In this document: positions 17,053 through 57,973 of the stretch, in pieces | Layout of the letters: every line of letters begins with the position of its first letter | Position numbering within the stretch: the first letter of the stretch is position 1 | Source of the DNA: Novipirellula aureliae | Lineage (GTDB): Bacteria > Planctomycetota > Planctomycetia > Pirellulales > Pirellulaceae | DNA: 64,000 nucleotides | NCBI RefSeq assembly: GCF_007860185.1 | Contig: NZ_SJPY01000003.1 | Location: 620,001 to 684,000 of the forward strand | Direction of reading: 5' to 3' | Notes under the pieces: model-generated | Seen by the model: the letters and a program-made list of their open reading frames with translations, nothing else | The model's database searches: none | What the model was told of the DNA's origin: nothing | Position numbers and translations under genes: made by a program

Positions 17053-20000
17053 ATGGCCGCTATGAACGCACCCTGTTTCACCGAGCTGCCGAACCTACCA
17101 CGCAAGTGGTTCTTCCTATTGGCCGTCGCCTTAGCGATGCCAGGAATCCAATTAGCGGGATACCGAACAAACGACTGCTGGGCCGAATTCCCCGCCCTGT
17201 TCAATACTGAAAAGCAAGCCGACAAACCAGTCATGTCCGCAACGGTCGCGGCGGCGTCCATCGAACTTCCGGAGCGGTTTCACGCGTCGGCCTTTGCGGC
17301 GGAACCCGAGGTGATGAATCCAATCGCAATGGCATGGGATGGACGCGGACGACTTTGGGTTGCCGAGAACTTCACCTATGCCGAGCGCAGCCAACGATTT
17401 CAATTGGATCTGCGCGATCGTGTTCTCATCTTCGATAATACATCGGCTGACCACTTTGCAACTCGCCGCGTCTTCACCGATGACATTCAAATGCTGACGG
17501 GATTGGAAATCGGTTATGGTGGCGTTTGGCTAATGTGTCCTCCGAGGTTGTTGTTCCTAGCCGACAAAGATCAAGACGATACGCCGGATGGGCCCGCCAC
17601 CGTCGTTTTGGATGGGTTTACCGTGGCCCAACAAAACTATCACAACTTTGCCAATGGACTACGATTCGGTCCCGATGGCTGGCTGTACGGTCGATGTGGT
17701 GGATCATGCCCAGGCAAAATCGGCACCCCTGAGACCCCGGACTCGAATCGACCTGCGCTGACCGGCGGCGTATGGCGATACCACCCGCTAAGCAAAGCGG
17801 TGGAGGTTTTGAACGCAGGAACGACGAACCCTTGGGGGCATGACTGGAACGATGTCGGCGAGATGTTCTTTTGCAATACCGTCAACGGACACCTTTGGCA
17901 CACGATCGCGGGTGCTCATCATCCACGCCCCTTCACACTCGATCCCAATCGGCGTACTTACGAACCAATCGATTTCCATGCCGATCATTGGCACTTTGAT
18001 ACAGGAAAAAAGTGGATGGAATCACGCGATGGATCCGCTAACGATTACGGCGGCGGCCACGCCCATTCGGGAACACTCGTCTATCAAGGTGGACGATGGC
18101 CCAAACAATATGATGGCGCATTGTTCACATTGAACTTTCATGGAAGACGTGCAAATCGTGAACGGATCGAAGCGGACGGCAGCGGGTACACGATTAAACA
18201 TGGCAGCGACTTTTTTTTAGCGGCTGACCCTTGGTTTCGTGGTATCGACTTGTCTACGGGTCCAGACGGAAATGTGTTTGTCTTGGATTGGTCCGATACA
18301 GGAGAATGCCATGAACACACCGGCGTTCACCGTGAAAGTGGTCGGATCTACAAAATCAGCTATGATCCACAGCAAAGTGAATCCAATGTGCCGAGTCGCA
18401 AAATCGCGGAGGTCGATTTCGCAGCAGGCAAAAGCAATGATTTGCATGATTGGCCGGCGAGCGAATTGGTGCTGGCTCATCGTGCCAGCAATCGCTGGTA
18501 TCTGCGTCAAGCACGACTCGAACTCATCCGTCGGACACGACTCAACGTCGAACATGACGATCCACAAACGATGGACGCAGCGATCGCAGAACTGCGGAAA
18601 AACCTACTGGTGGACAAAAGCAATTCGCCAGCCGTTACCGTTCAATCCCTGTTGACACTTCACGCTTGCAGCAAGTTGGATCAAGATGAAGTTGTCCGCC
18701 TGATGACGACCCATCCGTACCCATCCGTCAGACGTACAGCGGTTCGGATTGCCACCGAGGCGTGGCCGATCGATGACGTGATGGGACCTTCTTGGAAAGC
18801 AAACTTTTCGGCAACGGTAAACCAAGACAATTCGCTCGACAAGCTTGTGGAGACCTTCGCTAACATGGCAAGGAACGAGTCGAACGCCAGTGTTCGTTTG
18901 GCCCTAGCATCGACGCTGCAAAGATTGCCGATCGACCGCCGAAAAACGTTGGCGATTGAGTTGGTCGCTCATGCCGAAGATGCTGGCGACCATAATATTC
19001 CGCTAATGATTTGGTATGGATTGATACCGCTAGGCAGCCGGGATGCAGGCGAGCTAGTCGAGATTGCTGGTAGGTGCCGGATTCCCACAACTCTAAAATG
19101 GATCGCGCGTTGTGTTGCCGAAGAGATGCGTCGACAACCGCAAGCGTTCGACGCATTACTGGTCGAGATTTGCAATCGGTCATCCATCGGGGAACAGGAG
19201 ACAATGATGAGTGGAATCTGTGACGGGCTGCGTGGATGGAAGCGAGCCGACCGACCCGAAGCATGGAATCAAATTGCGGCGCTCCGTGCAAAGCCGCTGG
19301 AACGCTATGTTCGAGAACTTGGCGTGTTGTTTGGTGATGGCCGAGCTTTGCAAGAACTAAAACAAACAGCCCTTGGGAAGAATAGCGAGTCCGTGTCCTA
19401 CGAATCGCGTCTATCCGCTTTGGAAACATTGATCCAAGTTGGCGACGATGATTTGCGAGCCATTTGCGAAAGCTTGCTTCCAGATGCTCGGATGAATGTT
19501 CTTGCGGCGGAGGGCTTGGCGAAATTCGACGATCCGTCGATCGCCCGCCAGTTGATTCGCCGCTACTTCGCGTTTCGTAGCCCCGATCGACCAAAAATTA
19601 TCTCCTTGTTGGTTAGCCGGAAATCGTTTGCGAATGAATTATTGAAGGCAATCCAAGAGGAAAAAATCCATCGATCCGATTTATCTGCGTTTCAAGCGAG
19701 ACAAATCCAAAGTCATCACGATCAATCGCTCAACCGTACCCTTGCCAACGTGTGGGGCCAAGTTCACGACACCCCTGCGGCAAGACTAGAACAAATCGAC
19801 AAGCTCAAGCAAGCATTGTCGACGGAAACCATCGCAGCGTCAGATAAATCAAACGGGCGAACTTTGTTTAACAAACACTGCAGCACATGTCACCGCCTTT
19901 ATGGCGAAGGGGCAACGTTTGGCCCCGACCTTTCTGGTGCAAACCGGAGTGATCTCGATTATTTACTCTCGAACATCGTCGACCCTAGCGGCGTGGTCGA

Positions 20001-27254: not shown

Positions 27255-27565
27255 GCACAGGCTTCTAGCCTGTGGTCGGGCCATCACAGGTTGGAAGCCT
27301 GTGGCCAGGCCATCACAGGCTAGAAGCCTGTGCCACTTGGTTGGGCGATCACAGGTTGGAAGCCTGCGGTCGGGCCATCACAAGCTAGAAGCCTGTGCCA
27401 CTTGGTCGGGCCATCACAGGCTAGAAGCCTGTGCCACTTGGTTGGGCGATCACAGGTTGGAAGCCTGTGGTCGGGCCATCACAGGCTAGAAGCCTGTGCC
27501 ACTTGGTTGGGCGATCACAGGCTGGAAGCCTGCGGTCGGGCCATCACAGGCTAGAAGCCTGTGCC
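27255..27565. repeat. Array of ten hairpin repeats, core AGGCTAGAAGCCT
   Basis: Ten copies of a short palindrome of the type CACAGGCTAGAAGCCTGTG. The first copy is inverted (AGGCTTCTAGCCT). The later copies partly alternate between AGGCTAGAAGCCT and AGGTTGGAAGCCT, with two spacer types (CCACTTGGTTGGGCGAT and GTCGGGCCAT), giving a 64-65 bp higher-order unit in part of the array. It is read through in all frames without a credible protein. A related array is at 56480-56713. Confidence 0.9.
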
Positions 27566-46254: not shown

Positions 46255-47118
46255 ATGCTAATTATCAATGCGATTGCGACGATAGGCGGGCTGACGTTTG
46301 TCTTAGCCTCGTTACTCGTCGTGGCGAATCGCTATTTGCACGTGACCGAAGACGTTCGCATCGAACAGGTCGAGGACATGTTGCCGCACACAAATTGTGG
46401 TGCCTGTGGGTACCCCGGATGCCGTGCGTTCGCTGAAGCTTTGGTCCGTGGTGAAGCTCCGCCGGCAAAGTGTTCGGTCAGCGGCCCCGCGGACCATGCT
46501 CGCATTGCAGCGTTCTTGGGTGTCGATGTTGGCTCGCAAGAGAAGCGGGTCGCTCGTTTGGCTTGCGCGGGCGGCAACAACGTCGCTCGCAATCGCGCGA
46601 TCTACCAAGGGCAAGCATCGTGTGCTGCCGCCGCATTGGTCGCGGGTGGTGGGAAAGCTTGTTTCTGGGGCTGCCTCGGCATCGGTGACTGCGAGGTCGC
46701 GTGCGACTTCGATGCGATCACAATGAACCCCAATGAATTGCCTGTCGTCAATGAAGACCTCTGTACCGCTTGCGGCGATTGCGTCGAGGCATGCCCCAAG
46801 GATCTGTTTTCGATCCACCCGGTCAGCCATCGACTGTGGGTTGCTTGCTCTTCCTTGGAGGCAGGCGACGGAGTGCTTGAGGAATGTGAAGTCGCATGTA
46901 CCGCTTGCACTCGATGTGCCATGGATGCTCCCGAACAAATCACGATGATCAACAACTTACCGGTTGTCGATTACCGCAAAGGGCCGCAAAATCGCGAGCC
47001 GACGCAGCGTTGTCCGACCGGAGCCATTGTTTGGCTCGACGAAAAGCTTGGCGTCGTCAAAGGCGAAGCGGCTCGAAAAGTCATCCGCAAGGGTGAAATT
47101 CACAATACAACGACTTAA
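46255..47118 (+). CDS. rnfB: Ion-translocating complex subunit RnfB
   Basis: Ferredoxin-facing subunit of the Rnf complex, which couples electron flow from ferredoxin to NAD with Na+ or H+ export. From ATG 46255 (GAGGTG upstream) it has 287 residues: one N-terminal helix (3-24), the RnfB cluster domain with HTNCGACGYPGC, then GCLGIGDCEVACDFDAI and CTACGDCVEACPKDL. The last ferredoxin pair is altered: CTACTRCAMDAP lacks the fourth Cys, and the final motif keeps only QRCPTGA. First gene of the operon, unlike the common rnfCDGEAB order. The gap to the PFOR gene is 51 bp. Confidence 0.93.
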   Translation: MLIINAIATIGGLTFVLASLLVVANRYLHVTEDVRIEQVEDMLPHTNCGACGYPGCRAFAEALVRGEAPPAKCSVSGPADHARIAAFLGVDVGSQEKRVARLACAGGNNVARNRAIYQGQASCAAAALVAGGGKACFWGCLGIGDCEVACDFDAITMNPNELPVVNEDLCTACGDCVEACPKDLFSIHPVSHRLWVACSSLEAGDGVLEECEVACTACTRCAMDAPEQITMINNLPVVDYRKGPQNREPTQRCPTGAIVWLDEKLGVVKGEAARKVIRKGEIHNTTT

Positions 47119-47169
47119 ACGTTGAACTCCATCGATACCTTTTAACCATAACTCTATTTGACTCGAATC

Positions 47170-50100
47170 ATGGCAAAACCAGTACCTTCATTCAAATTCC
47201 CTGGAACTCGTGGCGCAGTCGATGGTAACACGGCGGTCATTTTATGTGAACGTGAAGGAACCGACGCTGCCGGTGCCTATCCAATCACCCCGTCGACGCA
47301 GATGGGCGAATACTGGGCCGACGCAGCGGCTCAGGGTTACGTCAACACGTCGGGCCGTCCGCTGATTTTTATCGAGCCGGAAGGCGAACATGCTGCTGCC
47401 GCTGTGACCGCTGGTTTGTCGATGACGGGCCTACGAGCGAGTAATTTTTCATCGGGTCAAGGGATCGCCTACATGCACGAATCGTTGTATGCCGCGGTCG
47501 GCAAACGATTGACTTACGTGCTAAATGTCGGTGCCCGCGCGATGACCAAATCGACGTTGAACGTGCATGCCGGTCATGATGATTATCACTGCATGGACGA
47601 CACCGGCTTCTTCCAAATGTTCGCCAAAGACGCCCAGGCCGCAGCGGATCTGAACATCATCTCCCACCGTATTGCTGAGCTGGCTTTGACTCCGGGTGCG
47701 ATCGCTCAAGACGGTTTCTTGACCACGCACTTGATCGAGTCGATTCAAATTCCTGAACGGGAATTGATCCAGCAATTTCTTGGTCGGCCTGACGATATTA
47801 TCGACACCCCGACGCCTGCCCAGCAGATTCTTTACGGTGACACGCGTCGCCGCATCCCAGAGATTTGGACGGTCGACGATCCGATCATGACGGGTACAGT
47901 CCAGAACCAAGATTCTTACATGCAAAGCGTCGCGGCGCAGCGTCCCTACTTCTTTGACCACATTGAGGAATTAGCGGACAAATCGTATGAAGAGTTCTAT
48001 CAACTGACTGGCCGCCGTTACGATCGTGTGATGACGTACAAAGCCGACGATGCCGATTACTTGATTTTCGGTCAAGGCAGCATGGTTCCGACGGCAGAAG
48101 TCGTAGCCGACTATCTGCGAGAATCTCGCGGTATCAAAGTTGGCGTGGTCAACTTGGTGATGTTCCGCCCCTTCCCCGCCGATTTAGTTGGCAAGATCTT
48201 GCAAGGTAAAAAGGGCGTGGCCGTCCTCGAACGGCTCGACCAACCCTTGGCCGTCGACTTGCCACTGATGCGTGAAGTCCGGGCGACGATGAGTCGTTGT
48301 CTGGAAAACGGACGCGACAAGAAAGAACAACCGTTCAAGCATCTGCCCGCCTACACCTCGCTGACCGATGCACCGTCTCTCTATTCCGGGTCGTTCGGGA
48401 TGGGCAGCCGTGACCTGCAACCGGAAGGTATCATCGCGGCGATCGAAAACATGTTGCCCGAAGGTGGACGACGCAAATTCTTCTATTTGTCGATCGACTT
48501 TTTACGCGAAAATCCGGTCAGCCCCAAACAGCGAATCCATCAAGAAAACATTTCGGATAAGTATCCGAATATCCGCGACCTAGCGATTCGTGGCAGCGAA
48601 AATCCGAACTTGATGCCCGACAGCAGTATTACCGTGCGAATGCACTCGGTCGGCGGTTGGGGAGCGATCACGACGGGCAAAAACTTGGCGATGACGCTCT
48701 ACGATTTGCTCGACTATCACATCAAGGCAAACCCGAAATACGGCAGTGAAAAGAAGGGGCAACCGACGACCTATTACTTGTCGGCATCGCCGGAACCGAT
48801 CCGCGTCAACAGCGAATACTTTTACGTCGACGTCGTTTTGTCACCCGACCCCAACGTCTTCAATCACACCAACGCGTTGGCGGGATTGAAGGAAGGCGGT
48901 TGTTTCATCATTCAAAGCGACCTCCAATCACCCGAAGAGGTTTGGCGAAGCATCCCTGAACCGTATCGGCGCATCATTTCCGACAAAAAGATCAAACTGT
49001 TCTACCTCGATGCTTTCCAAATCGCTCGCGAAGTCGCCAGTGATTCGGATCTACAATTGCGAATGCAAGGAATCGCATTCCAAGGAGCGTTCTTTGCCGC
49101 TTCACCGGTCGCTGAGAAAGCAGGATTGTCCGAGCAACGATTACTCGAAGCAATTCACGATCAACTGAAAGCAAAATTCGGCGGCAAAGGTGCTCGTATC
49201 GTCGATGAAAACATGCAGGTGGTCAAACGTGGCTACGACGAAATCAAACCGGTGCCACATGGAGATGTGACACAGGAAGAAGCGAGCAACAATGGTGCTT
49301 CGAAGGAACCCGCATTGCCGGTCCTGTTGAACAGACAACCGAAGAGCCAATCGGCATTGACCGACATTCATCGGTTCTGGGAGCAAACCGGTTCATTTTA
49401 TGCTCGCGGCATGGGCACCGATACAATCACCGACCCCTTTATCGGTTTGGGAACCATTCCCGCCGTCACGACATTGTTCCGCGACATGAGCGGCATTCGC
49501 TTCGAGCATCCCCAATGGATCGCAGAGAATTGCACCGCTTGTGGCAAGTGCTACACGGTATGTCCCGACACAGCGATCCCTGGTTTGGTAAGTGAGGTTG
49601 GTGAGATCTTCGATACGATGATCGAGCGGGTTCGCAAACAGAAACCTGACTTAAAACACCTACCACGTCAATCGCGAAAAGTGGCCCAGCGTTTACGGGA
49701 CATCTTCAACGATGCAAAAGAAACCGACAACGTTGCTGGCATGATCGACGGTGCGATCGCGCAAACGATTCGCGAATGTAAAGACGCACCAGAGACGGTG
49801 GAAGAGATCAAATCGGAACTAAAATTGTTCCGCGATGAAATTGGCGACTTCCAATTCGCCCTGTCGCGGCCCTACTACACCAACAAGGAAAAAGAAGCCG
49901 CAGGCGAAGGTGGATTGCTGAGCATCACCGTCAATCCCTACACCTGTAAAGGATGTATGGAATGCGTCGAGGTTTGTGATGACGATGCCCTGCGGGTTGT
50001 TAAACAAACCGAGGAATCCGTTAAGTCACTACAACGAAATTGGTCGGTTTGGCAGGACTTGCCAACCACACCGCAAAAGTACATCCGTGTCCAGGATATG

Positions 50101-52098
50101 GAACAAGGCATCGGTGCTCTCGAAACGATGCTGCTCGACAAACGAAACTACTCGGCAATGGCTAGTGGTGATGGGGCTTGTCTCGGTTGTGGTGAAAAGA
50201 GCATCGTGCATATCTTTACGGCAACGGTCGAAGCTCTGATGCAACCTCGTGTCAGCAAGCATATCGATTATCTGACGGGACTCATCGAAAAGATGGAAAG
50301 TCATATCCATCGCAAGCTGATCCAAGACATTGACGTCAGTGATCCGGCCGCGTTGTCAAAAACCATCGAAGAGATCGGGTCGGGCGATGTTACCCTAGGC
50401 AGTATCGCGAAGTTGATCGAGGAAAAAACGGGCGGCCAACCCATCGACCAAGAATGGCTCAATCGAATCACTCGTCTGTTGGAAAAACTGAAAAAGCTGA
50501 AGTGGAATTACACCGCTGGGACCAGCGGTCGTGGGCGTGCAAATGCCGGCATGATCAACTCGACCGGATGCTCCTCGGTTTGGGGAAGCACGTTCCCGTT
50601 CAACCCGTATCCGTTCCCATGGGCGAACCACTTGTTCCAAGATTCGACATCGGTTGCACTCGGTCTCTTCGAGGGGCACATGAGCAAGATGGCTGATGGT
50701 TTCCGTGTCATTCGCATGGTCGAAAGCGAATTAAACGACCAACGTCCAATCGACGAAAAATCGATGACCCATTTCAATTGGGAGCATTTCACGGATGAAG
50801 AATGGGAACTCTGCCCACCCGTGATTGCCATGGGTGGCGACGGAGCGATGTACGACATCGGTTTCCAAAACTTGTCTCGCGCGATGATGTCGGGCAAACC
50901 GATCAAGGTCGTCGTGCTCGATACACAGGTCTATTCGAACACGGGCGGACAAGCGTGCACCTCGGGCTTCTTTGGCCAGATCTCCGACATGGCCCAATAT
51001 GGCAAAGCGACCAAGGGCAAACCCGAGGTTCGTAAGGAAATCGGCTTGATTGGAATGGCACACCGCACGACTTACGTCATGCAAAGTGCGATTTCGAATC
51101 CGAATCACTTGATCGAAGGGTTCATTGAGGGGCTCAAAACGCGGCGGCCTGCCCTGTTCAATCTCTACACCTCATGCCAGCCCGAGCACGGTATCGGTGA
51201 CAACATGAGTGCGAACCAAGCGAAATTGGCCGTCGAGTCACGGGCTTACCCGTTGTTCCGCTACAACCCGGATCATGGCCATCTGCCCGAAGATTGCTTC
51301 GACCTCGACGGCAACCCGTCGATCGATGAAACGTGGCCGACTTATGAGCTGAATTATATCGACAGCGGGCGCAAAAAATCGATGGAGATCCCGATGACGT
51401 TCGCTGACTTTGCGGCGACGGAACATCGTTTCCGCAAACATTTCCGCGTCGCGCCGATTGAGACTTGGAACGACAAGATGGTCCCAGTGGCCGAATTTCT
51501 GGAGATGTCCGACGAAGATCGCGAGGGCATGTTCCCTTACATTTGGAGCGTCAACCGCGACTCGGAATTGATGCGGTTGTTGGTCGCCGAGCCGATCATT
51601 CGTTCCTGTGAAGATCGTCGTGATTTCTGGGGCATGCTACGTTCGATCGCTCGCGTCGGAGAAAAAACGATCGACCGAAGTGAAGTCGAAAACGAAGTTC
51701 GTCAAGAGATGACTCAGCGAATTGCGATGGGCCTTGCCAACATGATGTCAGGCGGCGGTGTCGCAGCGATGGTGTCAGGATCAAACGGCAGCTCGTCAGC
51801 AATCATCGATGCGGTTCCGAAAACCGATGCTCCCTCATCCGGCGACAATTACCTGGCTCCTTGGATCGATACACCCGAGTGCACATCGTGCGACGAGTGT
51901 GTGAATTTGAACAAGAAGATTTTCGCCTACAACGACAAGAAGAAAGCGGTCATCAAGGATCCCAATGGCGGTCCGTATTCGGACCTCGTCAAAGCGGCCG
52001 AAAAGTGTACTGCTGGGATCATTCATCCAGGGTTGCCGAAGGACCGCAGCGGCAAGGATATCGAAAAATGGATCGCACGAGGTGAGAAGTTTAACTAA
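47170..52098 (+). CDS. Pyruvate:ferredoxin oxidoreductase, expanded single-chain form
   Basis: Oxidises pyruvate (or another 2-oxoacid) to acyl-CoA and CO2 with low-potential electrons, or works in reverse. The chain has 1642 residues; usual NifJ types have about 1170-1200. Order: alpha domain (REGTDAAGAYPITPSTQMGE), domain II, gamma domain (RMHSVGGWGAITTGKN near 490), ferredoxin motif A (CTACGKCYTVCP from 788), an insert of about 110 residues, motif B (CKGCMECVEVC from 926), TPP domain (GDGACLGCGEKS near 1000; GGDGAMYDIG near 1222 with the later NTGGQ), then a C-terminal extension with another cluster motif, CTSCDEC at 1571-1577. A helical insert lies around 1030-1110. Starts at ATG 47170 (a TTG lies 12 bp upstream). 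Its stop overlaps the rnfC start. Confidence 0.93.
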   Translation: MAKPVPSFKFPGTRGAVDGNTAVILCEREGTDAAGAYPITPSTQMGEYWADAAAQGYVNTSGRPLIFIEPEGEHAAAAVTAGLSMTGLRASNFSSGQGIAYMHESLYAAVGKRLTYVLNVGARAMTKSTLNVHAGHDDYHCMDDTGFFQMFAKDAQAAADLNIISHRIAELALTPGAIAQDGFLTTHLIESIQIPERELIQQFLGRPDDIIDTPTPAQQILYGDTRRRIPEIWTVDDPIMTGTVQNQDSYMQSVAAQRPYFFDHIEELADKSYEEFYQLTGRRYDRVMTYKADDADYLIFGQGSMVPTAEVVADYLRESRGIKVGVVNLVMFRPFPADLVGKILQGKKGVAVLERLDQPLAVDLPLMREVRATMSRCLENGRDKKEQPFKHLPAYTSLTDAPSLYSGSFGMGSRDLQPEGIIAAIENMLPEGGRRKFFYLSIDFLRENPVSPKQRIHQENISDKYPNIRDLAIRGSENPNLMPDSSITVRMHSVGGWGAITTGKNLAMTLYDLLDYHIKANPKYGSEKKGQPTTYYLSASPEPIRVNSEYFYVDVVLSPDPNVFNHTNALAGLKEGGCFIIQSDLQSPEEVWRSIPEPYRRIISDKKIKLFYLDAFQIAREVASDSDLQLRMQGIAFQGAFFAASPVAEKAGLSEQRLLEAIHDQLKAKFGGKGARIVDENMQVVKRGYDEIKPVPHGDVTQEEASNNGASKEPALPVLLNRQPKSQSALTDIHRFWEQTGSFYARGMGTDTITDPFIGLGTIPAVTTLFRDMSGIRFEHPQWIAENCTACGKCYTVCPDTAIPGLVSEVGEIFDTMIERVRKQKPDLKHLPRQSRKVAQRLRDIFNDAKETDNVAGMIDGAIAQTIRECKDAPETVEEIKSELKLFRDEIGDFQFALSRPYYTNKEKEAAGEGGLLSITVNPYTCKGCMECVEVCDDDALRVVKQTEESVKSLQRNWSVWQDLPTTPQKYIRVQDMEQGIGALETMLLDKRNYSAMASGDGACLGCGEKSIVHIFTATVEALMQPRVSKHIDYLTGLIEKMESHIHRKLIQDIDVSDPAALSKTIEEIGSGDVTLGSIAKLIEEKTGGQPIDQEWLNRITRLLEKLKKLKWNYTAGTSGRGRANAGMINSTGCSSVWGSTFPFNPYPFPWANHLFQDSTSVALGLFEGHMSKMADGFRVIRMVESELNDQRPIDEKSMTHFNWEHFTDEEWELCPPVIAMGGDGAMYDIGFQNLSRAMMSGKPIKVVVLDTQVYSNTGGQACTSGFFGQISDMAQYGKATKGKPEVRKEIGLIGMAHRTTYVMQSAISNPNHLIEGFIEGLKTRRPALFNLYTSCQPEHGIGDNMSANQAKLAVESRAYPLFRYNPDHGHLPEDCFDLDGNPSIDETWPTYELNYIDSGRKKSMEIPMTFADFAATEHRFRKHFRVAPIETWNDKMVPVAEFLEMSDEDREGMFPYIWSVNRDSELMRLLVAEPIIRSCEDRRDFWGMLRSIARVGEKTIDRSEVENEVRQEMTQRIAMGLANMMSGGGVAAMVSGSNGSSSAIIDAVPKTDAPSSGDNYLAPWIDTPECTSCDECVNLNKKIFAYNDKKKAVIKDPNGGPYSDLVKAAEKCTAGIIHPGLPKDRSGKDIEKWIARGEKFN

Positions 52099-53471
52099 TG
52101 TTTGACGCTGTAAAACATCTCTTTGGCGTCAAAACGTTCGCCCATGGGATCCACCCGCCCGACTCGAAAAACGACACGAAAGAATTGGCGATTCACCAAT
52201 TCCCGTTTGCCGAGTTGTTGATCGTACCATTTTCGCAGCATATCGGTAAACCGGCGATCCCAATCGTCGGTGAAGGCGCAGAGGTGACGCGTGGGCAAAT
52301 GATCGCCAAGCCCGATGGTTTTATGTCGGTCGCAATTCATGCACCCGCAACGGGTGTGATTCGAAGCATCAGCTTGACACCTGCGATCAACGGCAAGATG
52401 ACGCCAGGGTTCTTTTTGGAACCCTACACGGCATCGACCCAAGAGGTCATGGAAGGTCCGCCGGTGATGCCGGATACGGCAAGCAGCGAAGAGATTTTGT
52501 CCGCGATTCAGAACGCTGGTGTGGTTGGTCTCGGAGGCGCCGGGTTTCCAACCCATGCCAAATTGAAGGTTCCTGAAGGCAAATCGGTCGACGCTTTGAT
52601 TATCAACGGAGCGGAATGTGAACCTTATTTGACGACCGATCATCGCGTCATGCTCGAACATGCCGAAGACGTGATGAAAGGAATCCCCTATCTGCTTCGC
52701 GCGACCGGGGCAAAGACCGTCGTGATTGCGGTCGAGTCAAACAAACCGGATGCCGCCGCAGCCCTTCGAAAAGCGCTGCCCGCAGACTTGCCGATCACGG
52801 TCGAAGTCTTGCCAGTGAAATACCCGCAAGGGGCTGAGAAGATGTTGGTCTCGGCACTACTCGGACGCGAAATCCCGTCGGGCGGCTTGCCGCTTGATGT
52901 CGGCGTCATCTGTACCAATGTCGGAACCACTGCTGAAATCGGGCACCTCTTGCCTCGCGGCATGGGGCTTTACGAACGTGTCATCACGGTCGGAGGGCCT
53001 GCGGTCAAAAAGAAGGGGAACTACCGAATCCCGATCGGCACACCGCTTCGCTATATCCTCGATACCGTTGGCACCGAAGACGACATCACCACCGTTGTCA
53101 TGGGTGGGCCGATGATGGGGGCGGCGGCATCGAGTTTGGACATCTCGATTACCAAGGGGTCGACCGGCGTGATTGCGTTCACGCACCGAGAAACCGGCCG
53201 AGTCAACGAGATTCACGAATACCCGTGCATCAAGTGCGGAGCTTGTGTCGATGCCTGTCCGATTTTCTTAAACCCATCACAACTTGGGATATTGGCGTCA
53301 AAGGAACAGTACGAAACGATGGTTGACGAGTTTCATTTGCGAGATTGTTTTGAGTGCGGTTGTTGTACGTTCGTCTGTCCATCGCACATTCCGCTTGTGC
53401 AAAAGTTCCGCGTCGCCAAAGCCGCGTCGCGTAAAGCACAAGCGAAGGCCGCAGCGGAGGCAGCGAAATGA
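52098..53471 (+). CDS. rnfC: Ion-translocating complex subunit RnfC
   Basis: The NADH-side subunit, soluble and bound to the membrane part. The 457 residues have a flavin/NADH domain with GLGGAGFPTHAKL and INGAECEPYLTTDHRV, then two [4Fe-4S] motifs, CIKCGACVDACP and CFECGCCTFVCP, and a short Ala/Lys-rich tail. Its ATG overlaps the stop of the oxidoreductase by one base (TAATG), so the two are translationally coupled. Complete relative to the family, but with a shorter tail than the gammaproteobacterial form. Confidence 0.95.
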   Translation: MFDAVKHLFGVKTFAHGIHPPDSKNDTKELAIHQFPFAELLIVPFSQHIGKPAIPIVGEGAEVTRGQMIAKPDGFMSVAIHAPATGVIRSISLTPAINGKMTPGFFLEPYTASTQEVMEGPPVMPDTASSEEILSAIQNAGVVGLGGAGFPTHAKLKVPEGKSVDALIINGAECEPYLTTDHRVMLEHAEDVMKGIPYLLRATGAKTVVIAVESNKPDAAAALRKALPADLPITVEVLPVKYPQGAEKMLVSALLGREIPSGGLPLDVGVICTNVGTTAEIGHLLPRGMGLYERVITVGGPAVKKKGNYRIPIGTPLRYILDTVGTEDDITTVVMGGPMMGAAASSLDISITKGSTGVIAFTHRETGRVNEIHEYPCIKCGACVDACPIFLNPSQLGILASKEQYETMVDEFHLRDCFECGCCTFVCPSHIPLVQKFRVAKAASRKAQAKAAAEAAK

Positions 53472-54490
53472 CTCGGTTAGCAAAAACACTTACCATTCGA
53501 AGTTCACCTCATATCCGGGCGACGTCGGGTGTCGATTCGATCATGTTCAATGTCGTCTTGGCGATGTTGCCGGTCTGCTTCTACGCCGTTTACATCTTTG
53601 GGATGGCAGCGTTCCTCGTGCTCGCCACGTCCGTCGTCACCTGCGTCTTGACCGAACACCTGCTGTGCCGCATCAATGGCAAAGCAACGACAATTGGCGA
53701 TTGGTCCGTCGTGATTACAGGTGTCCTATACGGATTGACTTTGCCACCTTCGTTGCCTCTTTGGATGGTCGTCGCGGGAGGTGTGATCGCGGTCGGTGTC
53801 GGAAAATACCTGTTCGGCGGCTTGGGATACAACACGTTCAACGTCGCCTTGGTTGGGCGAGCGATCCTGCAGGCTGCATTTCCTGCGGCAATGACGACTT
53901 GGCCGGACGCGCCAGTGAACCGATTCGGATCACTGCCGTCATCGACGTTGGCCTTGCCGTTGACCAAACCGATATACGACGGAGTTTCATCGGCGACACC
54001 GCTTGCCGATTGGAAATTCAATCAAGTCGCTGCCGAAACCGGCGATTTGTTTATGGGCACGATCAGCGGCTCAACGGGCGAAACATGTGCCCTACTGATT
54101 CTGATCGGGGGCATTTATTTGGTGGCGCGGCGGATGATGAATTGGCGGATTCCGGTCGTCATCTTGGCGACGGTCGCCATTGCGACTGGGATTTTGCATT
54201 TGGTCGATCCTGAGCGTTACGCCAGCCCCACGTTTATGTTGTTTTCAGGTGGATTGATGCTTGGCGCCGTCTTCATGGCCAGCGACATGGTCGGTTCTCC
54301 GATCACGCATTGGGGGACCGTGATCTATTCGGTCCTGATTGGGCTGCTCGTTGTGCTGATTCGCGTTTGGGGTGGTATGCCCGAGGGAGTGATGTACGCG
54401 ATCCTTATCGGTAACGCGGCCACACCGCAAATTGATAGTTGGATCCAACCGAAGGTTTACGGGACGTCGACGCGGAGGGCAGCAACATGA
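53468..54490 (+). CDS. rnfD: Ion-translocating complex subunit RnfD
   Basis: Membrane subunit of about ten helices with a covalently bound FMN. 340 residues. The FMN site, usually S/T-G-A-T, reads DGVSSATPL with Thr177, so the Thr is kept but the Gly before it is Ser. GGLGYNTFNVALVGRA and the last helix (GVMYAILIGNAATPQIDSW) are typical. It starts four bases inside rnfC (ATGA overlap). The flavin transferase ApbE needed for attachment is not in this window. Confidence 0.95.
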   Translation: MTRLAKTLTIRSSPHIRATSGVDSIMFNVVLAMLPVCFYAVYIFGMAAFLVLATSVVTCVLTEHLLCRINGKATTIGDWSVVITGVLYGLTLPPSLPLWMVVAGGVIAVGVGKYLFGGLGYNTFNVALVGRAILQAAFPAAMTTWPDAPVNRFGSLPSSTLALPLTKPIYDGVSSATPLADWKFNQVAAETGDLFMGTISGSTGETCALLILIGGIYLVARRMMNWRIPVVILATVAIATGILHLVDPERYASPTFMLFSGGLMLGAVFMASDMVGSPITHWGTVIYSVLIGLLVVLIRVWGGMPEGVMYAILIGNAATPQIDSWIQPKVYGTSTRRAAT

Positions 54491-55239
54491 GCGAGACCGG
54501 ACTAAAAGAGGGGACACCCGAGACAAAGAATCCACCGGCACCCCAAACCGCATCAGCGGCCAAAATTTACAGCGTCGTGCTCGGCGTCGGTGTTGTATGC
54601 AGCTTGCTAATCGTCACGACCTACGAAGTGACGCGGCCGATCATCAAAGCAAACAAATTGGCGATGCGAGAACAAGCAATCCTGGACGTGATCCCCGGCG
54701 CCGTGACAAGTAAATCGTACCAGTTCGATGAGACGGATGCCCATTTCCACCCGGCCACCGCGGATGCCGAGGAATCTGAACTGATCTTTGCTGGCTACGA
54801 TGAAAAAGACAACTTGGTTGGATTGGCTATCGAAGCAAACGCGATGGGTTACCAGGATACGATTCGGTTGTTGTATGGCTATTCACCGGAAAAACAAGCG
54901 ATCGTAGGGATGAGTGTATTGGAAAGCCGAGAAACGCCCGGTTTAGGTGACCGCATCCAAACCGATCCCAATTTCCGTGCAAATTTTGAAGCGTTGGATG
55001 TCTCGGTCAACCCCAGCGGCGATGAGTTGGCTCACCCGATCGAGTTTGTAAAGGAAGGTGAAAAGCAAGAGCCTTGGCAGATCGACGGAATCACCGGAGC
55101 GACCATTTCTTCAAAGGCGACGGCGGACATGTTGAGGGCGAGCACGAGTGAGAAAATACCCTTGGTAAAAGCAAAAAGCGATGATTTTCGATCGGTTCCC
55201 AAACCTGAACTTGTCCCCGACACCGAGGGAGAGGAATAA
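54487..55239 (+). CDS. rnfG: Ion-translocating complex subunit RnfG
   Basis: Membrane-anchored periplasmic subunit with covalent FMN. From ATG 54487 (4-nt overlap with rnfD) it has 250 residues: one helix (about 25-45; SVVLGVGVVCSLLIVTTYEV) and the FMN-binding domain ending in DGITGATISSKA, with the flavin-carrying Thr206 intact. ESRETPGLGDRI is the other family block. It is followed by rnfE after a 3-bp gap. Confidence 0.95.
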   Translation: MSETGLKEGTPETKNPPAPQTASAAKIYSVVLGVGVVCSLLIVTTYEVTRPIIKANKLAMREQAILDVIPGAVTSKSYQFDETDAHFHPATADAEESELIFAGYDEKDNLVGLAIEANAMGYQDTIRLLYGYSPEKQAIVGMSVLESRETPGLGDRIQTDPNFRANFEALDVSVNPSGDELAHPIEFVKEGEKQEPWQIDGITGATISSKATADMLRASTSEKIPLVKAKSDDFRSVPKPELVPDTEGEE

Positions 55240-55242
55240 ACG

Positions 55243-55893
55243 ATGGCCATTGGTTTAGAAAAAGAGACGATGAACGACACGAACGACTTCCTCGATGGCA
55301 TCTTTAAACGCAATCCCGTTTTCGTACAAGTTCTTGGCATGTGCCCCACGTTGGCGGTGACCAATACCGGAGTCAATGCCTTGGCGATGGGGTTGGCAAC
55401 AGCGTTTGTGTTGCTGATGTCAAACATTGCCGTATCACTGCTGAGAAAGATTGTGCCCGCGCAGGTTCGCATCGTCACCTTCATTTTGGTGATTGCAACC
55501 TTTGTGACGATCGTCGACTATTTGATCCAAGCGATTAGTTTGGATTTGCATCGAGCATTGGGGGCATTCATTTCGCTGATCGTGGTCAACTGTTTGATTC
55601 TCGGCCGAGCGGAATCGTTTGCGTCCAAGCATGGGGTGATCCGTTCGATCAAGGATGGGCTTGGCATGGGGCTTGGGTTTCTGATCGGGTTACTTTGCTT
55701 AGGAATTGTCCGCGAAGTGATGGGCAATGGAACATTGTTCGGACTCCATTTGTTCGGCGAATCGTTCCAACCATGGACGGTGATGATGTTACCGCCCGGC
55801 GGCTTTTTCACGTTGGCAGCATGGCTATTGTTTTTCAATTGGCTCTCAAAGCGTCGAGCCGACAAGGCAATGCAACAAGAGGTGGTAAAATGA
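55243..55893 (+). CDS. rnfE: Ion-translocating complex subunit RnfE
   Basis: One of two homologous six-helix subunits that share a membrane-embedded [2Fe-2S] centre. The 216 residues have FKRNPVFVQVLGMCPTLAVT and ISLIVVNCLILGRAESFASK, each with the conserved half-site Cys. The C-terminus is hydrophobic (MLPPGGFFTLAAWLLFFNW) with a basic tail. ATG 55243 is used; ATG 55270 is possible. It overlaps rnfA by 4 nt. Confidence 0.95.
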   Translation: MAIGLEKETMNDTNDFLDGIFKRNPVFVQVLGMCPTLAVTNTGVNALAMGLATAFVLLMSNIAVSLLRKIVPAQVRIVTFILVIATFVTIVDYLIQAISLDLHRALGAFISLIVVNCLILGRAESFASKHGVIRSIKDGLGMGLGFLIGLLCLGIVREVMGNGTLFGLHLFGESFQPWTVMMLPPGGFFTLAAWLLFFNWLSKRRADKAMQQEVVK

Positions 55894-56471
55894 ATGATGC
55901 ATCGCTGTGGTCGATTTTCATCAACGCGTGTTTGGTCAACAATTTTGTCCTGGCGTACTTCCTCGGAATTTGCCCGTTCTTGGGCGTTTCGAATAAGCGA
56001 GACACCTCGCTGCGAATGGGGATGGCGGTAACGTTCGTGATGCTGGTCAGCTCGATGGCCGCGTACGGGATCCACTTATTGCTTTTGTGGGTTGACGCTC
56101 CCTACTTGGAGCTAATTTCCTTCATTGCCGTGATCGCTTCCACCGTCCAATTGGTCGAGATGTTCATCAAGAAGATGAGCCCAACTTTGTTCAAGGCATT
56201 AGGCATTTTCTTGCCGTTGATCACTACCAATTGCGCGATTTTGGCAGTTGCGCTTTTTCAAACCAATCGCAGTTATAGCTTCTTGCAATCGATCGTCTTC
56301 GCCCTGGGAGCCGGAGCCGGCTTCACCTTGGCGCTTGTGTTGATGGCAGGATTGAGAGAAAAATTAGAGTTGGCAAATTTACCCGAAATCGTGAAAGGGA
56401 CTGCAATCACCTTGACGCTCGCCGGATTGTTATCGGTATGCTTCATGGGTTTCGCAGGCTTGTTCAATTAG
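55890..56471 (+). CDS. rnfA: Ion-translocating complex subunit RnfA
   Basis: Partner of RnfE in the membrane ion channel. From ATG 55890 it has 193 residues and six helices, with CLVNNFVLAYFLGICPFLGV and LPLITTNCAILAVALF giving the two Cys of the shared cluster. Length and motifs match the family exactly. Last Rnf gene; its stop is followed within 20 bp by a hairpin array that may end the transcript. Confidence 0.96.
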   Translation: MNDASLWSIFINACLVNNFVLAYFLGICPFLGVSNKRDTSLRMGMAVTFVMLVSSMAAYGIHLLLLWVDAPYLELISFIAVIASTVQLVEMFIKKMSPTLFKALGIFLPLITTNCAILAVALFQTNRSYSFLQSIVFALGAGAGFTLALVLMAGLREKLELANLPEIVKGTAITLTLAGLLSVCFMGFAGLFN

Positions 56472-56479
56472 AAAAGCGT

Positions 56480-56713
56480 AGCCTAGGCTTCTAGCCTGGG
56501 ATTACACTGGCCACCCCAGGCTAGAAGCCTAGGCCACATACATATTGACCCCAGGCTAAGAAGCCTGGGCTACGTAACATTGATCCAAGGCTAGAAGCCT
56601 GGGCTACGTAATATTGATCCCAGGCTAGAAGCCTGGGCCACGTAACATTGATCCCAGGCTAGAAGCCTGGGCCACGTACATATTGATCCCAGGCTAAGAA
56701 GCCTGGGCCACGT
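56480..56713. repeat. Second hairpin array, core AGGCTAGAAGCCT
   Basis: Seven copies of CCCAGGCTAGAAGCCTGGG or close forms (two with CTAAGAAG), spaced about 35-42 bp and joined by CCACGTAACATTGAT-like spacers. The first copy is inverted (AGGCTTCTAGCCT), as in the 27.2-kb array, which has the same core but different flanks. It lies between rnfA and the Cys-rich protein gene. Confidence 0.9.
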
Positions 56714-56748: not shown

Positions 56749-56937
56749 ATGTTTGAGCAAATTCTAAAAGCCGCTATCGGAATGATCTGCGTGATGGGCG
56801 TTTGGTTATTGGTTCAATCACTGTGGCGACTCTTGTCGGGTGCCATGCCGAATCAAGACGCACTCGGCGGACGAGTCGGCTGCCATAGCTGTGATTGCAA
56901 AACGCCATGCGAGAACTCAAAAACAAACGCCCAATAG
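56749..56937 (+). CDS. Small Cys-rich membrane protein (NqrM- or FeoB-associated-like)
   Basis: 62 residues: one membrane helix (about 6-28; AAIGMICVMGVWLLVQSLWR) and a cytoplasmic tail with CHSCDCKTPC (Cys45, 48, 50, 54). The C-x2-C-x-C-x3-PC pattern recalls NqrM (DUF539), needed to put iron into the membrane cluster of Na+-NQR, whose subunits are relatives of RnfA and RnfE. FeoB-associated Cys-rich proteins are an alternative. The position right after rnfA supports a maturation role for the Rnf cluster. Function is inferred. Confidence 0.65.
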   Translation: MFEQILKAAIGMICVMGVWLLVQSLWRLLSGAMPNQDALGGRVGCHSCDCKTPCENSKTNAQ

Positions 56938-57112: not shown

Positions 57113-57973
57113 ATGCGATTATTAGATTTTGACGTAAAGACACGCTATAAAGCAGTCGTTCTCCGTAGCGAACGACTGACTCCGGAGGATTCGAAGGAGG
57201 ACGTTCGCGACATATCGATTGAGGTCGAGAGCCACGAATTCGATGCAGTCGTGGGCCAGAACATTGGCGTGTTAGCGCCGGGGCAAGCCGAACTTGGGCA
57301 AGAGTTTCATCTGCGTTTGTACGGTATCGCCGATCTACCGAAGACTTCGTCGGATGGCCGCAAACAGATTACGATTTGCGTTCGCCGCTGTAGCTACATT
57401 GATCAATATAGCGGCGAAGAGTATCCAGGCGTGGCTTCGAATTACCTTTGCGATCTTCGCCCTGGCGATTCGCTAACCATCACGGGTCCCTATGGGCAAC
57501 CGTTCAAGGTTCCCGAAGAACTCGATGCCAACTTGATCCTTATTTGTGCCGGTACTGGCATCGCTCCGTTCCGAGCGTTTGTCAAGTATTTGTACAAAGA
57601 ACGACCTGATTTCCGAGGCCGCATCAAACTGTTCCATGGCGGACAAACCGGTCTCGATCTGTTGTACCGCAACGACGAGAAAGATGATTTCGTGTTGTAT
57701 TATGACCGCGATACCTTTGAAGCCATTGACGCATTGAGCAAGCGACCTGGTTGGACAGGCGCAAGCGGATGGGGAACAGCGATGCAAGAGCGTGCGGGCC
57801 AAATTGCCGACATGTTGTCCGACCCGAAAACGTACGTTTATGTCGCGGGCGTCGAGCGAATCCGCCACGAGTTAGACGAGGTCTTTTGGGCCGTCACCGG
57901 CCTGACCGAGGATTGGAGCCGAAAGAAAGAAAAACTCGTAGAAGAAGGACGCTGGGTCGAACTGCTCTATTAG
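57113..57973 (+). CDS. Ferredoxin-NADP reductase
   Basis: Moves electrons between ferredoxin and NADP(H). The 286 residues have an FAD domain with RLYGIADLPKTS (usual RxYS; the Ser is Gly here), KQITICVRRCSYID and GVASNYLCDLRPGDSLTITG. The NADP domain has ICAGTGIAPFRAFVKYL, LFHGGQTGLDLLYR, YVAGVERIRHELDEVF and an aromatic C-terminus (RWVELLY) as in plant-type FNR. It is downstream of the Rnf operon and shares its substrate, reduced ferredoxin, so together they could balance NADH, NADPH and ferredoxin pools. Confidence 0.9.
   Translation: MRLLDFDVKTRYKAVVLRSERLTPEDSKEDVRDISIEVESHEFDAVVGQNIGVLAPGQAELGQEFHLRLYGIADLPKTSSDGRKQITICVRRCSYIDQYSGEEYPGVASNYLCDLRPGDSLTITGPYGQPFKVPEELDANLILICAGTGIAPFRAFVKYLYKERPDFRGRIKLFHGGQTGLDLLYRNDEKDDFVLYYDRDTFEAIDALSKRPGWTGASGWGTAMQERAGQIADMLSDPKTYVYVAGVERIRHELDEVFWAVTGLTEDWSRKKEKLVEEGRWVELLY

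Follow-up and report, generated by a model that had tools for sequence, protein, structure and literature searches.

In the present study, a PFOR-like gene (pyruvate:ferredoxin oxidoreductase) encoding an enzyme with a ferredoxin fused to its C-terminus was found within an rnf operon in the window, a stretch of 64,000 nucleotides of Novipirellula aureliae DNA. The operon also carries a gene for a ferredoxin--NADP(+) reductase-like flavoprotein (FNR). The gene content, gene order and domain fusion are conserved across phyla, and the encoded proteins diverged in parallel. We consider that the cassette probably constitutes one energy-converting pathway, in which electrons from pyruvate would pass through PFOR and the tethered ferredoxin to Rnf, with FNR as an NADP branch.

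Gene content and layout of the cassette

The features of the cassette are as follows.

46255..47118, +, rnfB, 287 aa (Pfam FeS and Fer4; TIGR01944 93 bits, cut-off 68.7)
47170..52098, +, 2-oxoacid:ferredoxin oxidoreductase of PFOR-like type, 1,642 aa, substrate probably pyruvate, ferredoxin fused at the C-terminus (POR_N, PFOR_II, POR, Fer4, TPP_enzyme_C)
51751..51843, +, flexible linker ahead of the ferredoxin domain (pLDDT <50; Ala/Pro-rich)
51856..52098, +, single-[4Fe-4S] ferredoxin domain at the PFOR C-terminus, residues 1562-1641 (Fer4_13, E 8e-7)
52098..53471, +, rnfC, NADH-binding subunit (TIGR01945 494 bits, cut-off 246)
53468..54490, +, rnfD (TIGR01946 325 bits, cut-off 207)
54484..55239, +, rnfG (FMN_bind domain; TIGR01947 90.7 bits, slightly below the cut-off of 102)
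55243..55893, +, rnfE, start at 55243 or 55264 (TIGR01948 235 bits, cut-off 213)
55890..56471, +, rnfA (TIGR01943 235 bits, cut-off 229)
56749..56937, +, small Cys-rich membrane protein of 62 aa with a single helix, in the nqrM position (a homologue or analogue lies directly 3' of rnfA in most cassettes)
57113..57973, +, plant-type FNR, 286 aa (PDB 2b5o, E 1.4e-39)

The original prediction of the order rnfB-PFOR-rnfC-D-G-E-A with stop/start overlaps was borne out by sequence re-reading and Pfam/NCBIfam searches. The PFOR gene (ATG at 47170, stop at 52098) starts 51 bp after rnfB and overlaps the rnfC ATG (52098) by 1 nt; rnfD (start 53468) overlaps rnfC by 4 nt, rnfG (start 54484) overlaps rnfD by 7 nt, and rnfA (start 55890) overlaps rnfE by 4 nt. 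All six Rnf subunits (A, B, C, D, E, and G) are encoded together, with RnfG alone slightly under its NCBIfam subfamily cut-off. RnfB has a membrane anchor at the N-terminus and 20 cysteines, a count sufficient for five [4Fe-4S] clusters. RnfG contains a TGAT motif, as in flavinylated subunits, and an SSATP motif in RnfD is a possible flavinylation site; both are putative covalent-FMN motifs. The genome has three ApbE flavin transferase genes, which may serve Rnf maturation. The signals obtained in promoter and terminator scans were no better than those in shuffled sequence. Although the genes listed by the original prediction hold, its end point at rnfA (56471) does not, and the unit runs to at least 57973.

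A palindromic array of about 200 bp with 34-bp units (56515-56713) lies between rnfA and the gene for the small Cys-rich protein. Near-identical palindromic repeats (CCCAGGCTAGAAGCCTGGG / CACAGGCTAGAAGCCTGTG) form two arrays in the window, at 56482-56713 and 27256-27563 (10 matches versus 0 expected).

The small protein carries a CxC..PC motif and is NqrM-like in motif and position. However, it scored 14.8 bits against PF04400 (NqrM), for which the gathering threshold is 22, and one of the 15 homologues matched this family at all. Its assignment as a true NqrM was therefore rejected, and we regard its likeness to NqrM as an analogy limited to position and Cys content. NqrM is required for the intramembrane [2Fe-2S] cluster of NQR (PMC12174285). 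Since NqrM serves that cluster, it is reasonable to propose by analogy that the small protein is probably a maturation factor for the iron-sulphur site of RnfA/RnfE. The FNR exhibits FAD/NAD(P) two-domain homology, a GTGIAPFR motif, and a C-terminal Tyr, and its 2'-phosphate-binding region, which bears on NADP rather than NAD specificity, aligns weakly. A role as NqrF in an Nqr-like complex was rejected: the NqrF score was 45 bits versus approximately 150 bits for PetH-type FNR, and no 2Fe-2S domain was reported.

The PFOR core and its fused ferredoxin

The PFOR is homologous to single-chain PFORs along its whole length, and the best PDB match was the M. thermoacetica enzyme (6cin, E 2e-88). 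The originally predicted identity holds for the PFOR-type domains, but not for a canonical enzyme: the protein is divergent, reaching 421 bits against the equivalog TIGR02176 (cut-off 911), and carries an additional C-terminal ferredoxin. Long insertions separate the cluster motifs and precede the TPP domain. In numbering without the initiator Met, T39, E72, and R122 align with the Thr, Glu, and Arg that bind pyruvate/TPP, T39 and R122 being the counterparts of the Thr and Arg that bind pyruvate in 6cin. These residues and the YSNTGGQ motif with N1256 are conserved among this PFOR, its relatives, and the canonical PFOR of the host. The twelve core cysteines of three [4Fe-4S] clusters (C787/790/793/797, C925/928/931/935, and C1003/1006/1133/1335) are invariant. 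Because the catalytic residues and cluster ligands are conserved, pyruvate is the likely substrate; the divergence of the core from TIGR02176 makes this assignment less than certain.

The C-x2-C-x2-C...C pattern of the ferredoxin domain is invariant. A profile constructed from 35 homologues had Desulfovibrio africanus ferredoxin I as its top match (E 5e-8), and the AlphaFold model of the domain (pLDDT 94) had 1fxr as its top Foldseek match (rmsd 0.9 A). Neither canonical PFOR nor the long PFORs of a sister clade possess the domain. It is preceded by an Ala/Pro-rich linker (residues 1527-1557, corresponding to fragment residues 783-813 in a model of residues 745-1641), which is predicted to be flexible with a pLDDT <50 and varies in length among homologues. 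Foldseek matches to the 897-aa PFOR fragment were PFORs, but superposition was poor, and we therefore make no docking claim. The earlier view that PFOR makes reduced ferredoxin for Rnf needs to be revised, as the enzyme carries the ferredoxin within its own chain and the cassette includes an FNR.

Distribution of the cassette and linkage of PFOR to Rnf

The PFOR-Rnf cassette was detected in Planctomycetota, Bacteroidota, Gammaproteobacteria, Myxococcota, Acidobacteriota, Calditrichota, and Gemmatimonadota. Gene order was compared beyond this genome, as had originally been proposed, and the same order was found across phyla. At the level of genomes, a cassette unique to N. aureliae was thus rejected, and the recurrence of the order places it beyond chance. 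In the planctomycete sample, rnfB-PFOR-rnfC occurs in several families, and the cassette is patchy within the window's own family. Among the best 80 loci of a GTDB genome scan, nearly all carry the cassette where the contig permits, and many of these loci are from MAGs, in which binning can be wrong.

Two arrangements were observed, with rnfB first, as in the window, or last, 3' of FNR. The latter was found in Bacteroidota and a Methylomicrobium. Since the Methylomicrobium PFOR nests within Bacteroidota on the PFOR tree (in which the short paralogue L114 was disregarded), the whole cassette may have been moved by transfer. In the isolate Gemmatirosa kalamazoonensis (plasmid collection), the order is rnfB-PFOR-rnfC-D-G...E-A and the PFOR bears the ferredoxin domain; on plasmid 1 (L197), approximately 1.1 kb between rnfG and rnfE (17091-18242) contains no cassette genes. 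FNR is present in 59 of the 71 loci showing PFOR, rnfC, and rnfA. Eight of the 12 loci without it belong to a deep planctomycete subclade or to Gemmatirosa, and three of the others (L045, L084, and L112) stop within or shortly past rnfA.

Other arrangements were also encountered. A Calditrichales MAG (L050) has two adjoining rnf operons, of which only the second is linked to PFOR. A third planctomycete PFOR-type lineage (L126, L137-L148) is split into genes of approximately 690 and 530 aa, with no ferredoxin domain or nearby Rnf at the examined locus L126.

In counting the linkage between the ferredoxin domain and Rnf, each place contributed a single locus, for which an intact C-terminus and sufficient flanking sequence were required; nine loci were unscorable. 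PFORs with the domain were adjacent to Rnf at 91 loci and unlinked at one, whereas those lacking it were adjacent at none and unlinked at seven. The ferredoxin-bearing PFORs form one group on the tree, and the 91 linked cases are therefore not independent, nor is the Fisher value for these counts independent evidence; the co-occurrence represents essentially about one origin, since kept together. The sole unlinked PFOR with the domain (L102, a gammaproteobacterial MAG) is flanked by transposase-like genes and nests in Bacteroidota. NuoE/NuoF were considered as partners of the Rnf-unlinked long PFORs and rejected, as the neighbours checked were a haem-binding protein, an ABC transporter, and unassigned proteins.

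PFOR distances correlated with those of RnfC (Mantel r 0.97), RnfE (0.93), RnfA (0.93), FNR (0.91), RnfB (0.90), and RnfD (0.88), and none of 1000 permutations reached the observed values. In the planctomycete sample, the RnfC proteins of PFOR-linked operons form one clade with one clear loss (L188). Planctomycete RnfC proteins at least 46% identical to that of the window were PFOR-linked, except in G121 and at a contig start (L172, left out of the linkage scoring); the operons with a more distant RnfC, among those examined, were not PFOR-linked. Conservation of the order across phyla, parallel divergence, and the extra ferredoxin in the Rnf-adjacent clade strongly support, from sequence comparison, the view that PFOR and Rnf are a functional unit, which bears out part of the original interpretation.

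The loss in L188 (G121:C4, from the window's family) is a natural deletion: rnfB-rnfC-D-G-E-A and the small Cys-rich protein are kept, and neither PFOR nor FNR was found across a 19-kb stretch. In L054, FNR lies directly 3' of PFOR without Rnf in between, and the contig ends there. Together, these two loci point to PFOR, and not Rnf, as the partner of FNR.

Proposed function and comparison with known systems

From the features described above, we infer the following electron route and direction. The substrate of PFOR, a 2-oxoacid that is most probably pyruvate, would be oxidised with CoA, and the electrons would cross the three [4Fe-4S] clusters inside the enzyme to the tethered C-terminal ferredoxin. 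The co-occurrence of this domain with Rnf and the presence of the linker suggest electron passage through it. The tethered ferredoxin would stand in for a diffusible ferredoxin, RnfB would accept the electrons, RnfC would reduce NAD+, and Rnf would export the pumped ion. Where present, FNR would pass electrons from the ferredoxin domain to NADP+. The net reaction would be pyruvate + CoA + NAD+ -> acetyl-CoA + CO2 + NADH + ion-motive force. The pyruvate couple lies at a much lower potential than NAD+/NADH, and the Rnf step would therefore be exergonic forwards. The cassette would thus act as an "energy-conserving pyruvate dehydrogenase" that is reversible in principle; when the ion-motive force is high and electrons come from NADH, or from NADPH by way of FNR, it may function as a pyruvate synthase.

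Host genome content was probed by family searches. We found two PDH E1 genes and one partial match, at least four heme-copper oxidase genes, an acetate kinase, and a separate canonical PFOR with a DHODH-like gene after it; isocitrate lyase was not detected at the search threshold. PDH E1 copies lie near a cytochrome oxidase fragment (G000:C5:316411-325821), and one E1 is apparently partial. A second Rnf/Nqr-type membrane subunit pair (G000:C1:1157642-1158869; L128, L130), with ApbE approximately 1.4 kb downstream, is probably an Na+-NQR. Because of PDH, the canonical PFOR, and this second pair, the cassette is neither the sole route from pyruvate to acetyl-CoA nor the sole pump of this type. 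PDH, the oxidases, and the usual oxygen sensitivity of PFORs count against the main reading, as do the lack of FNR in the deep planctomycete subclade and Gemmatirosa and the ferredoxin domain of L102 without nearby Rnf.

The cassette may also operate mainly in reverse, with ion-motive force and NADH (through Rnf) or NADPH (through FNR) reducing the tethered ferredoxin, and PFOR carboxylating acetyl-CoA for anaplerosis in a respiring cell. The fully aerobic setting of the host, in which PDH covers the oxidative direction, is consistent with this role, and FNR would provide a second electron input. With no detectable isocitrate lyase, growth on acetyl-CoA would need another anaplerotic route. 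Rnf is known to work in the reverse, ferredoxin-reducing direction (PMC12174285). However, the sequence does not fix the direction, a separate canonical PFOR is present, and acetate kinase suggests that fermentative pyruvate oxidation is also possible. We regard a mainly reverse role as unlikely. A different 2-oxoacid may instead be the substrate, with the same coupling to Rnf. The score far under the PFOR equivalog cut-off, the long insertions, and the presence of a canonical PFOR in the host point in this direction, but the Thr and Arg aligned with the pyruvate-binding residues of the M. thermoacetica enzyme are conserved and the top structure and sequence matches were PFORs, not 2-oxoglutarate or oxalate oxidoreductases, which leaves a non-pyruvate substrate very unlikely.

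Genes are often grouped in operons without physical contact, and the cassette may reflect mere co-regulation of redox genes, with a soluble ferredoxin pool common to PFOR and Rnf and an intramolecular or structural role for the C-terminal domain. L102, which retains this domain without Rnf nearby, fits such an arrangement. However, it is the only one of the scorable Rnf-unlinked relatives to have the domain, the domain sits on a linker predicted to be disordered, and none of the gaps between the listed cassette genes in the window showed a gene for a free ferredoxin; we consider mere co-regulation to be quite unlikely. The forward, energy-conserving pathway is the reading that we prefer. Its stronger form, a widespread supercomplex acting as an ion-pumping pyruvate dehydrogenase, in which PFOR is physically wired to Rnf through the tethered ferredoxin and connected with NADP through an FNR of its own, and which aerobic and facultative bacteria use reversibly, is possible, and we propose it tentatively.

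The potential drop from pyruvate to NAD+ is lost as heat by PDH. The cassette would capture this drop as an ion gradient and would be a case of an enzyme wired to a redox pump through a ferredoxin fused to it. It would also give aerobic hosts a pyruvate synthase that is reversible and driven by ions. Rnf and PFOR are both usually assigned to anaerobes. The carriers of the cassette include Gemmatirosa, Algoriphagus, Polaribacter, and a Methylomicrobium, and several carriers are usually regarded as aerobes, which would change views on where Rnf and PFOR are used. The cassette also offers testable genes in cultivated strains, with Rubripirellula obstinata, Algoriphagus kandeliae, Marivirga sericea, and Gemmatirosa kalamazoonensis among the carriers.

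Rnf, PFOR, FNR, and their common ferredoxin pool are already known. What appears to be new is the ferredoxin-fused PFOR within a conserved Rnf-FNR cassette, for which no description was found in the open-access literature, subscription papers being mostly outside the scope. A 2025 review on RNF/NQR gave no hit for PFOR, nifJ, or Planctomycetes (PMC12174285).

In comparison with classical Rnf (A. woodii, C. tetanomorphum, and T. maritima), RnfABCDGE are recognisable and flavinylation-type motifs are present in RnfD and RnfG; however, the operon described here adds a ferredoxin-fused PFOR, FNR, and a small Cys-rich protein, and its RnfC forms its own clade in the planctomycete sample. The PFOR shares its domain set, catalytic residues, and cluster ligands with canonical single-chain PFORs (D. 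africanus and M. thermoacetica), but is approximately 450 aa longer, with insertions in the ferredoxin-like and TPP regions and an extra C-terminal ferredoxin, and is linked to Rnf. Eukaryotic pyruvate:NADP+ oxidoreductase (PNO, Euglena) is a PFOR with a built-in electron carrier and an NADP route; in the cassette, in contrast, a ferredoxin serves as the fused carrier, FNR is a reductase with its own gene, and Rnf comes in addition. The NQR-QFR of Prevotella bryantii, an Na+-translocating NADH:fumarate supercomplex shown biochemically (PMC8516057), sets a precedent, as a pump of the Rnf/Nqr type is physically attached there to its redox partner, although both pump and partner differ from those of the cassette.
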